The position numbers and the translations under genes were made by a program. 44,785 nucleotides of DNA, taken from positions 13,626 to 58,410 of the forward strand of contig CAMYLP010000002.1 of assembly GCA_947259245.1 (NCBI GenBank), in the 5' to 3' direction. Positions within the stretch are counted from its first letter, which is position 1; every line of letters starts with the position of its first letter. Origin of the DNA: an uncultured Patescibacteria group bacterium (GTDB lineage Bacteria > Patescibacteriota > Minisyncoccia > Phycocordibacterales > UBA12088). Below the pieces are notes generated by a model. That model was not told the origin of the DNA. It saw only the letters and a list, made by a program, of their open reading frames with translations, and did no database searches. Shown here one piece after another: positions 5,156 to 10,924 of this stretch.

Positions 5156-5356
5156 CTAGTGTAGCGGATGTCTTCTACGGTACCGCGCAGCGAAGCTGTG
5201 TTCGCTATTAGGGTACTGCGACCAGAACAATGCAAGCTGGTCCGCAGTAGGTGTCGGATCTCCCGTTATGCACCAATAGATTTCCCGTTGAGGTTCGCTC
5301 TCTATTTGGGCAAGTTGACACCTTACGTCTTCGTCTGGATCAAAGAACTTAGCCAT
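5156..5356 (-). CDS. Small hydrophilic protein of unknown function
   Basis: 66 residues starting MAKFFDPDEDVRCQLAQIE. It is acidic at the N-terminus and basic at the C-terminus (AARYRRRHPLH), with a central YWCITGDPTPTADQLALFW stretch. Its reality is supported by a strong GAGGAGG Shine-Dalgarno sequence 7 nt before the ATG and by a clean terminator downstream, although no known domain is seen. It belongs to the set of short genes in this window that use strong ribosome binding sites rather than leaderless starts. Confidence 0.7.
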   Translation of the reverse strand: MAKFFDPDEDVRCQLAQIESEPQREIYWCITGDPTPTADQLALFWSQYPNSEHSFAARYRRRHPLH

Positions 5357-5500
5357 AATACACCTCCTCAGAATGCGTATGGCACACTCACTTTCATTAA
5401 AGTACTACGCCATATAATGTCAAGTGTTTTTGGTGCACAACAAGTAACCAACCTGTGGCATTGTAGCGTAGGCCCATTATACGTTACAATACAAAGGTAT

Positions 5501-8590: not shown

Positions 8591-9868
8591 TTACTTCTTT
8601 CCACGCCTCGTACGAACAGCTTTCGCTCGGCCCGTCTTGTGGTCAAGCAGTGTCTCTTGGTGCGGGGAGATGATGTGACGCGGCTCGACACGCTCTATGG
8701 GGACCTCCCTTTCAAATGCGGCAAAGTAGCGAAGACGACCCGCTTGCGTGGTCAGTGGGTGTACTCGGAGGTATGCGCCATAAAACTCTCCTGTTTTTTT
8801 TCTGTTCAGCAGATACCCTGAATATACTTGCTTCTCTTGTTTAACTTGTCTCCACAAATCCTGATAAAAATCAGGTGTCATATTACCACCCCAGAGGTCG
8901 GGCCCTCCATGACGCTTACCCAACATTTCTTCGAGCGGGAATCCGGTCATCTCCACAGCGGCACGATTTGCATAGATAATAAGACCATTCGAGTCAGTAA
9001 TCACTACGTGGTCTGCGAAGTGGTCGAGTGCAAACTTGAGTCGCCCCAACTCCTCTTTTTGTTTGCGAAGCTTGTTGTGCGCTTCTTTCATGTCGGTGAT
9101 GTCAAAACAACTTCCCGTGTAGCCCTCAAAGACAGCATCTTCCGCAAATCGTGGTACTGCGAGCTCGCGTATCCACCGATACTCTCCACGGCGGTTGCGT
9201 AAGCGATACTCGTGCTCATATGGGCGCAGTTCACGTGCATGTTGTGAGAAGGCATCGCTGTATCGCGATTTGTCTCGACCATGCAAACCAGCCATCCATC
9301 CGAGACCATACTCATCACGCAGTCCTCTCCCCGTATAGTGCAACCATGTACTGTTGAAGTAGATACGCCGTCCTTGCATATCTGATAGCCACATCAATGC
9401 CTTAGGCGAGTGTGTCATCGAAAAAAGACGCTTTTGTTGTTCATGTTCGTGCTCCTCTGACAATTTTCGACGACTGATATCCCGGGAAATACACACCACC
9501 TCTTCCTCGGGTGTACCATGTTGAACAACGTTACTCCGGGTCTCGACCCAAATATGATTGCCACGTTTAGTGCGCATACGATAGGTGATGGTGTGCGACG
9601 CATTTGGTTTCTGTAGCACATGCGAGAGACCAGACTGCACAGTGTGTTTGTCATCTTCATGCACGAACTCAAGTGGCTTGTGGCCCGCGAGCTCGTCGGG
9701 TTCATACCCTAGCATCTGCCTGCTTGAAGGAGACACGTATACATACACACCATTTCGCTTGTGTGTGGTAATGAGATCCGCGCACGACTCAATAAGGAAT
9801 CGCCATCTCGCTTCTTGTGCGCGAGGTGTGTCGGCTTGCGAGTCGGCACGCCTTGGCATTACCTCCAT
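8591..9868 (-). CDS. Triple-PAS protein without an output domain
   Basis: About 425 residues. Three PAS modules are visible: one with LITTHKRNGVYVYVSPSSRQMLGY and a PAC tail (WVETRS...CISRDISRRK); a second from MTHSPKALMWLSDMQGRR to GSCFDITDMKEA; and a third after a short coiled coil (KLRKQKEELGRLKFALDHF) with VVITDSNGLIIYANRAAVEMTGF. The end is a basic tail (KAVRTRRGKK). No histidine kinase, GGDEF, EAL, HTH or STAS domain and no membrane segment is present, so signal output must go through a partner or the tail. The start could be either of two ATGs nine bases apart. The stop lies 35 nt before the DUF2061 start. Confidence 0.9.
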   Translation of the reverse strand: MEVMPRRADSQADTPRAQEARWRFLIESCADLITTHKRNGVYVYVSPSSRQMLGYEPDELAGHKPLEFVHEDDKHTVQSGLSHVLQKPNASHTITYRMRTKRGNHIWVETRSNVVQHGTPEEEVVCISRDISRRKLSEEHEHEQQKRLFSMTHSPKALMWLSDMQGRRIYFNSTWLHYTGRGLRDEYGLGWMAGLHGRDKSRYSDAFSQHARELRPYEHEYRLRNRRGEYRWIRELAVPRFAEDAVFEGYTGSCFDITDMKEAHNKLRKQKEELGRLKFALDHFADHVVITDSNGLIIYANRAAVEMTGFPLEEMLGKRHGGPDLWGGNMTPDFYQDLWRQVKQEKQVYSGYLLNRKKTGEFYGAYLRVHPLTTQAGRLRYFAAFEREVPIERVEPRHIISPHQETLLDHKTGRAKAVRTRRGKK

Positions 9869-10021
9869 TGTCCAGTAAATATGAGATTCGCGCAACTATG
9901 AGCACTTTTCGTGTACCAGTTCGTGCAAGAACATACTATCTCAACCTGCTACAGGACATGTGCCGTACCTTTCTCATGGGCTCAATGTGGGGTGTGAAGA
10001 CGTGCGGCCGAACACGAAAAG

Positions 10022-10050
10022 TTGACAGACAACTAGTGAAGTTGTATAAT
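10022..10050 (+). promoter_or_regulatory. Perfect consensus sigma-70 promoter
   Basis: TTGACA at 10022-10027 and TATAAT at 10045-10050 are separated by exactly 17 bp, so both hexamers and the spacer match the consensus. It faces the zinc-finger-like gene at 10110 and would give a leader of about 53 nt ending in a GGAGGAGG ribosome binding site. Confidence 0.88.
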
Positions 10051-10109
10051 ACCACGTAGCGAATTATGTCAATCCATGCATACATGAAGATGCATGGGAG
10101 GAGGTAATC

Positions 10110-10316
10110 ATGTGCCACGTCAGGACATTTGGAATACACTGTCACCGGATCGGATGTGGTCAAGAAGTCCCCGTTACAAACTATGTAGTAATGCCGGGAA
10201 CGGATGGCAAACTACACTCATACCACAGGTCCTGCTGTCTCGCAGAGTTGAGGGAACGAGCGGTGAAACATCCCCTACCCGGCTATAGCAACCTTCCACG
10301 TACGTTCGTGTTCTAA
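10110..10316 (+). CDS. Small zinc-finger-like protein, strongly expressed cassette
   Basis: 68 residues starting MCHVRTFGIHCHRIGCGQEV. It is rich in possible metal ligands: C11-x4-C16, then H36, H39-x2-C42 and C43. This order resembles a short treble-clef or PARP/LIM-like finger with a loop of about 22 residues between the ligand pairs. It has its own perfect promoter, a GGAGGAGG Shine-Dalgarno sequence 6 nt before the ATG, and a terminator that begins at its stop codon. No family is recognised, and zinc binding is inferred from the spacing only. The gene is likely one of the most strongly expressed in the window. Confidence 0.75.
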   Translation: MCHVRTFGIHCHRIGCGQEVPVTNYVVMPGTDGKLHSYHRSCCLAELRERAVKHPLPGYSNLPRTFVF

Positions 10317-10360
10317 GCCCCCGTCGAGTTCGCAGCTGTTCGGAAAGCTGATGGGGGCTT
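10315..10360 (+). terminator. Rho-independent terminator of the zinc-finger-like gene
   Basis: Outer stem AAGCCCCC (10315-10322) / GGGGGCTT (10353-10360), with an inner CAGCT / AGCTG stem. It overlaps the TAA of the gene. The T-run after it is short (TTTCCC). Confidence 0.7.
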
Positions 10361-10387
10361 TCCCGCACACTGCACATCAACCAAGTA

Positions 10388-10408
10388 CCAGCTGCTGCTG
10401 GATTTTTT
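10388..10408 (+). terminator. Second hairpin with a T-run
   Basis: CCAGC-TGCT-GCTGG followed by ATTTTTTATT. It lies 28 nt after the first terminator and probably backs it up. The remaining stretch to 10540 holds no gene I can support; one isolated TTGACA at 10443 has no good -10. Confidence 0.55.
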
Positions 10409-10543
10409 ATTACGTTGAGCAGATGCTTCCCAACGAGTAAAATTGACACGTGTTGGATCATGATGAGTAGTACGACCTTACGTTGACCATGCGCGCATCG
10501 ATGCATGATGTCTCCCTTGGTGACGGTGAGAGCGTGCTACACT

Positions 10544-10552
10544 TGGTATACT
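10544..10552 (+). promoter_or_regulatory. Extended -10 giving a leaderless transcript
   Basis: TGG-TATACT ends 6 nt before the ATG at 10559, with no Shine-Dalgarno sequence. Confidence 0.5.
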
Positions 10553-10558
10553 CATCCA

Positions 10559-10924
10559 ATGGAACATCCTCCGCACAATGAAAATGCGCCGCTCGACCTT
10601 GAAAAGGAAGTCTACGCTGGGCTGTCGGCTACATGGTTCAAGACCGTTCAGGAGATACTTCCGGGACACTTACGCGACCTACCGAAAGCAAAACTCACGG
10701 AAGAGGAGCTGCAGTTATACAATGATGCATATACCGTACTCGGCAATATGGTGAAAGAAAAAAACGTGGAGGTATCGTTTCGTGAAGAGGAAACTCCGGT
10801 GTCAGGAGACGGCACTTCTCATACGACCCTACGCCGTCCACAGTTCAAACTAAAGACAGAAAGAGGCAAGAAGGAGGACACTCCTCGTCAGATACACACA
10901 CCTAGTACCGATACTCCAACTTAA
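10559..10924 (+). CDS. Hydrophilic protein of unknown function
   Basis: 121 residues starting MEHPPHNENAPLDLEKEVYAG. The first two thirds are predicted helical (LSATWFKTVQEILPGHLRDLPKAKLTEEELQLYNDAYTVLGNMVKEK). The last third is low-complexity, rich in Lys, Glu, Thr and Pro, and likely disordered. It has no membrane segment, signal peptide or known domain. The upstream in-frame ATGs at 10505 and 10508 were rejected because the -10 element ends 6 nt before the chosen ATG. It converges on typA, leaving 18 nt between the stops. Confidence 0.7.
   Translation: MEHPPHNENAPLDLEKEVYAGLSATWFKTVQEILPGHLRDLPKAKLTEEELQLYNDAYTVLGNMVKEKNVEVSFREEETPVSGDGTSHTTLRRPQFKLKTERGKKEDTPRQIHTPSTDTPT

Follow-up and report, generated by a model that had tools for sequence, protein, structure and literature searches.

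The window analyzed here, a stretch of 44,785 nucleotides from an uncultured Patescibacteria group bacterium, holds a compact single-gene unit in which a sigma-70-type promoter is followed by a leader hairpin, a Shine-Dalgarno sequence, a frame of 68 codons (ORF68) and two further hairpins (Table 1). The fully consensus promoter and the ribosome binding site of the original prediction were both recovered as described. Of the two tandem terminators it proposed, the distal one is clear, while the proximal one, a GC-rich hairpin that starts at the base following the stop, is only a probable terminator, as its T run is weak (TTT) and the consensus terminator scan did not list it. The predicted isolation of the gene also holds in the sense of a separate transcription unit, its neighbours being a divergent gene for a multi-PAS protein, in which Pfam found no output domain, the orphan frame ORF121, and typA, which converges on the unit. 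The leader (10056–10125) folds at −20.1 kcal/mol (z −1.85), with 11 of 200 shuffles folding equally well. Both the leader hairpin and the dyad in the promoter spacer are absent from the earlier sequence-only description.

Table 1. Features of the ORF68 unit and its surroundings, in window coordinates.
Feature	Position	Strand	Description
Sigma-70-type promoter	10022–10050	+	TTGACA (10022–10027), 17-base spacer, TATAAT (10045–10050); 12/12 consensus
Dyad ACAACT-AGTGA-AGTTGT	10029–10045		nearly exactly fills the promoter spacer; putatively operator-like, from sequence
5′ leader hairpin	10073–10098	+	9 bp, loop of 8; 3′ arm runs into the Shine-Dalgarno sequence
Shine-Dalgarno GGAGGAGG	10097–10104	+	5 bases before ATG at 10110; from sequence
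ORF68	10110–10316	+	68 aa; ATG 10110, TAA 10314–10316; putative one-domain zinc-finger-type protein
GC-rich hairpin, probable first terminator	10317–10358	+	42 bases, directly behind TAA; −21.4 kcal/mol
Intrinsic terminator CCAGC-TGCT-GCTGG-A-TTTTTT	10388–10408	+	hairpin 10388–10401; from terminator scan and fold
Three-PAS-domain gene	upstream of ORF68	divergent	from Pfam
ORF121	10559–10924		orphan frame, 243 bases downstream of ORF68
typA	beyond ORF121	opposite direction	converging on the ORF68 unit
Second small cassette	5156–5356 (to 5360)	−	66 aa; TTGACA-16-TTTAAT, GAGGAGG; promoter about 5400–5430

In regard to the coding nature of the frame, 20,000 dinucleotide shuffles of the interval 10056–10420 yielded an ATG frame of at least 60 codons in 4,248 cases when no Shine-Dalgarno sequence was required, while a GGAGG followed by an ATG and such a frame occurred in 53, and GGAGGAGG anywhere in the interval in 58. 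As the frame alone is frequent and its coupling to a Shine-Dalgarno sequence rare, the signal lies in the combination and not in the frame, and the cassette beats chance as a coding unit. Alternatively, the transcript could be a non-coding or regulatory RNA on which the 68-codon frame and its Shine-Dalgarno sequence are fortuitous or decaying. The non-adapted codons discussed below and the frequency of frames of this length in the shuffles fit such an explanation, which, however, leaves unaccounted for the rarity of the combined signal and the stop of the frame directly before the hairpin. Furthermore, the fold of the 357-nt RNA does not surpass that of its shuffles (z −1.42), and every Rfam family stays below its cut-off over it, the only match being the CPEB3 ribozyme, on the opposite strand and with 14.4 bits against a cut-off of 35. 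For the latter two reasons a stable non-coding RNA was rejected as the first choice, and we consider the RNA alternative as a whole quite unlikely.

The synonymous-codon LLR of ORF68 amounts to −3.47, against 3.36 ± 2.49 expected of the genes of the window (P 0.004 under the gene model and 0.46 under the background). In the first codon test, which drew on 28 gene intervals with two left out, all six frames score alike; the later test used 25 intervals from the list of open reading frames. Such codon use is not what one would expect of a gene with a long residence and high expression; between a non-gene and a gene that is young or foreign it does not decide. Atypical codons are nevertheless no disproof of coding in this genome, since L149, a certain gene of like promoter and Shine-Dalgarno layout, is equally atypical (P 0.0 of 500), a further point against the RNA alternative. 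A 200-residue piece of its 333-codon frame matches the Pfam peptidase family S41 (E 1.4e-8). L149 combines a near-consensus promoter and a terminator-like hairpin of its own with these very atypical codons, and may have been recently acquired.

Perfect consensus promoters had been called rare in chromosomes. With spacers of 16–18 bases there are seven in the 949,805-base genome, a number far above chance, the reversed pattern being found nowhere, and ORF68 shares this trait with six other sites. Behind these lie, among others, grpE and two genes with a sortase domain and a lytic-transglycosylase domain, respectively, which indicates that such promoters serve ordinary genes in this genome. The complete layout also recurs. 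The pattern TTGACA-N16-18-TAnnnT-N20-50-GGAGG occurs at 12 sites of the genome, compared to one for the control, and behind 11 of them, that of ORF68 included, there is a start codon with a frame, while one has none. Besides the 68 codons of ORF68, the ten further frames, most of which are short, measure 146, 163, 286, 333, 497 (this one running off its locus), 66, 95, 58, 64 and 151 codons, and in most of those that are complete a hairpin, as judged by eye, follows soon after the stop. Several single-gene units thus share one build, ORF68 among them. A second small cassette of this build lies in the window (Table 1), and its 66-aa product has no Pfam match. Neither this protein nor that of ORF121 has a convincing match in 40 other genomes, the 66-aa protein having one match, at E 0.0023, and both frames are codon-atypical. 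In another locus (L028, 1501–1750), a consensus promoter precedes a transcript of about 170 bases that has a GGAGGAG before a 16-codon frame and ends in a terminator-like hairpin, CCCCGTC...GACGGGG; this stretch has no Rfam match and may encode a small RNA or a leader peptide.

When the stretch of the promoter spacer was shuffled 20,000 times, a dyad with an arm of at least six bases appeared in 90 cases; of 14,922 19-mers sampled from the window, 71 contain one. Of two traits of operator control, one is present, the 6+6 dyad overlapping the core promoter of ORF68, while the other, the same operator at further promoters or a cognate regulator, was not found. Allowing up to two mismatches, the motif has 30 genomic sites against 82 for the reversed control, and the site at ORF68 is its sole exact copy. 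The motif was accordingly rejected as a regulon motif or global operator, being not enriched in the genome. Three of the sites with one mismatch were inspected by eye; two seem coding-like and one lies before a gene. The spacer dyad is a possible locus-specific repressor site, and if it acts as an operator, the gene may be a switchable one. With a strong promoter and a dyad in its spacer, a switchable gene may be as plausible as a constantly high one. The proposal that the protein is needed at high level loses its footing, as the codons are unlike those of the genome's genes and the dyad fits a switchable gene equally well. It is barely conceivable that the ORF68 protein itself binds the dyad in its own promoter and that a burst of expression follows once zinc or a partner is released, in the manner of a metal or stress switch; if this were so, minimal autoregulated units of one gene would be found repeatedly across Parcubacteria as cassettes limited to a species.

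The predicted protein carries cysteines at positions 2, 11, 16, 42 and 43 and histidines at 3, 10, 12, 36, 39 and 54, and the ligand groups originally noted, C-x4-C and H-x2-CC, are indeed there, in the arrangement C11-x4-C16-x22-H39-x2-C42-C43. Cysteines and histidines together number 11 among its 68 residues. Of random proteins drawn from the composition of the window's genes, 0 in 100,000 have as many, and 441 in 100,000 do with background composition. The general zinc pattern C-x2-4-C...[CH]-x2-3-[CH] was found in 5 and 1,155 of 100,000 such proteins, respectively, but in 15,470 of 100,000 shuffles of ORF68's own residues, which means that most of the signal stems from composition. With fewer than 70 residues and two C/H pairs (C11-x4-C16 and H39-x2-C42), ORF68 shows two traits of one-domain zinc finger micro-proteins. 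A single-sequence AlphaFold model, of low confidence (mean pLDDT 46.2, pTM 0.26), places strands at 25–29 and 35–39 and a helix at 40–53, directly behind the knuckle. Taken together, the ligand spacing and this model weakly fit a treble-clef zinc finger.

eL24 and Rlp24 are treble-clef zinc proteins. At least 16 of their chains stand among the 50 Foldseek matches listed for the model, at E about 1–3, and the order of knuckle, beta-hairpin and helix in the low-confidence model resembles theirs. On the other hand, ORF68 has CxxxxC and HxxC(C), the Foldseek values are as weak as stated, and a sequence search of PDB chains, in a library including eL24 chains, gave no match at E ≤10. In VIA-align 2, three of 675 chains reach Z ≥2 and no eL24 chain is among them. 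Kinship with eL24, considered in view of the Foldseek matches, was dropped on this alignment.

Searches for homologues returned ORF68 itself. Within its own genome it has no match but itself, and in a sample of 98 genomes of relatives, which includes its own genome, five others of the genus and four others of the family, only its own genome appears below E 0.008. Six weak foreign matches at E ≤1, in five genomes (E 0.009–0.17, the best 0.0086), are pieces of other frames or contain stops, the best one having a stop inside. None of the five genus genomes and none of the four family genomes holds a convincing match, one of the latter having two weak pieces at E 0.12–0.15. Larger, overlapping samples from the order (397 genomes) and the phylum (379) gave no convincing match either; their best foreign matches (E 0.0057–0.0086, 36–53 residues) all contain stops and were rejected as chance. 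On the DNA level, the interval 10020–10560 has, besides its own locus, only pieces of 16–32 bases in 61 genomes. Exact-peptide seeds gave no homologue in 84,980 GTDB species, and Pfam, NCBIfam, PHROGs and PDB sequences gave no match (for Pfam and PDB, none at E ≤10). These scans favour close relatives, and ORF68 may belong to a fast-evolving family. The original prediction had itself named absence of the gene from close relatives as refuting, and this outcome came about, with no convincing homologue in the genus, family, order and phylum samples.

These results bear on the suggestion that ORF68 is a conserved housekeeping zinc protein, associated with the ribosome or RNA polymerase, that has diverged past recognition by sequence. 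The strong expression signals would suit it, as would the fold, which weakly resembles that of zinc proteins of the eL24 type. However, a protein of this kind should be recognizable where TypA is still 75–78% identical (the five genus genomes span 73–78%), and instead it was not found in these or in the four family genomes, other genes occupy the interval beside typA, and the codons are non-adapted. We regard this explanation as very improbable, and the claimed association with ribosome or RNA polymerase is left unsupported by the relatives, with no convincing homologue in them and other genes next to their typA.

In the genus genomes, the stretch behind typA holds, in place of ORF68, antiporter-like and YgjP-like genes (G004), a helicase-like gene (G002 and G005) or response-regulator-like genes (G003), all named by eye, while in G001 this stretch covers 1,296 bases, to the contig end. 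Judging from this gene content, the site of ORF68 next to typA is a variable spot. By TypA, named relatives are Candidatus Kaiserbacteria and other Parcubacteria. Within the window, the stretch from the YgjP-like gene to typA (8591–10924) looks like a variable spot. The PAS gene, ORF68 and ORF121 in it all show codon use below expectation, with P 0.008 for the PAS gene and 0.02 for ORF121 under the gene model.

Such a setting raises the possibility of import with a phage or mobile element, in which case ORF68 could be an early or anti-defence protein of small size whose strong promoter is open to repression. The consensus promoter with its spacer dyad, the atypical codons, the lack of relatives and the variable spot are all in line with this origin. 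Nevertheless, the closest matches lie no lower than E 0.3 in 50,697 phage records and E 0.8 in 72,556 plasmids, exact-peptide seeds gave no relative in IMG/VR, PHROGs contain no match, no integrase or phage gene was seen in the list of open reading frames around ORF68, and its GC content of 0.512 equals that of the window (0.511) almost exactly. We therefore hold a mobile origin to be unlikely.

The reading we favour, with moderate confidence in it as a whole, is that of a monocistronic unit for a species-restricted accessory protein with one treble-clef-like zinc site. The strong sigma-70 promoter would drive an mRNA of roughly 350 nt, whose stem-loop leader and strong Shine-Dalgarno sequence would lead to translation of the 68-residue protein. 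In the protein, C11/C16 and H39/C42(C43) would most likely hold a single zinc ion in a treble-clef-like manner, with the knuckle followed by a beta-hairpin and by a helix starting from HxxC, and the product could serve as a small accessory that binds nucleic acid or protein. The gene itself would be an accessory one, of recent origin or evolving fast, in the variable spot next to typA. The signals and the frame are established, and so, within the collections searched, is the lack of a recognizable relative; expression of ORF68, zinc binding by its product and a role of the dyad as operator are inferred. Since no other genome searched has yielded it and this bacterium has several such small units, ORF68 is in all likelihood an accessory gene of an ordinary kind, specific to its species. 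Of the original idea of a new small zinc protein, a putative zinc-type protein from a strong unit of its own thus persists as the best reading, without the high level and the ribosome or polymerase association.

Small proteins of this type have a parallel in the archaeon Haloferax volcanii, where single-domain zinc finger micro-proteins of less than 70 aa are known; of 16 deletion mutants there, not one differed when conditions were optimal, and 12 of 16 differed under some condition (PMC6562870). ORF68 resembles these micro-proteins in having fewer than 70 residues and one putative zinc site, although they are archaeal and the likeness is one of size and putative site, and their conditional phenotypes would suit an accessory gene (PMC6562870). 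For Patescibacteria, a published count lists 54,343 clusters that are lineage-specific and of unknown function, and it places 45,788 at species level, with lineage-specific requiring at least two genomes (PMC9132574). ORF68 behaves like these species-level unknown genes, with the difference that the definition given there needs at least two genomes (PMC9132574).

Many single-gene units of this genome have a consensus promoter and a strong Shine-Dalgarno site in front of them, and several of these units are short and belong to no known family. Strong signals by themselves thus do not tell whether a gene is conserved or essential. Provided that it is expressed, ORF68 would be one more species-restricted small protein with a putative zinc site.
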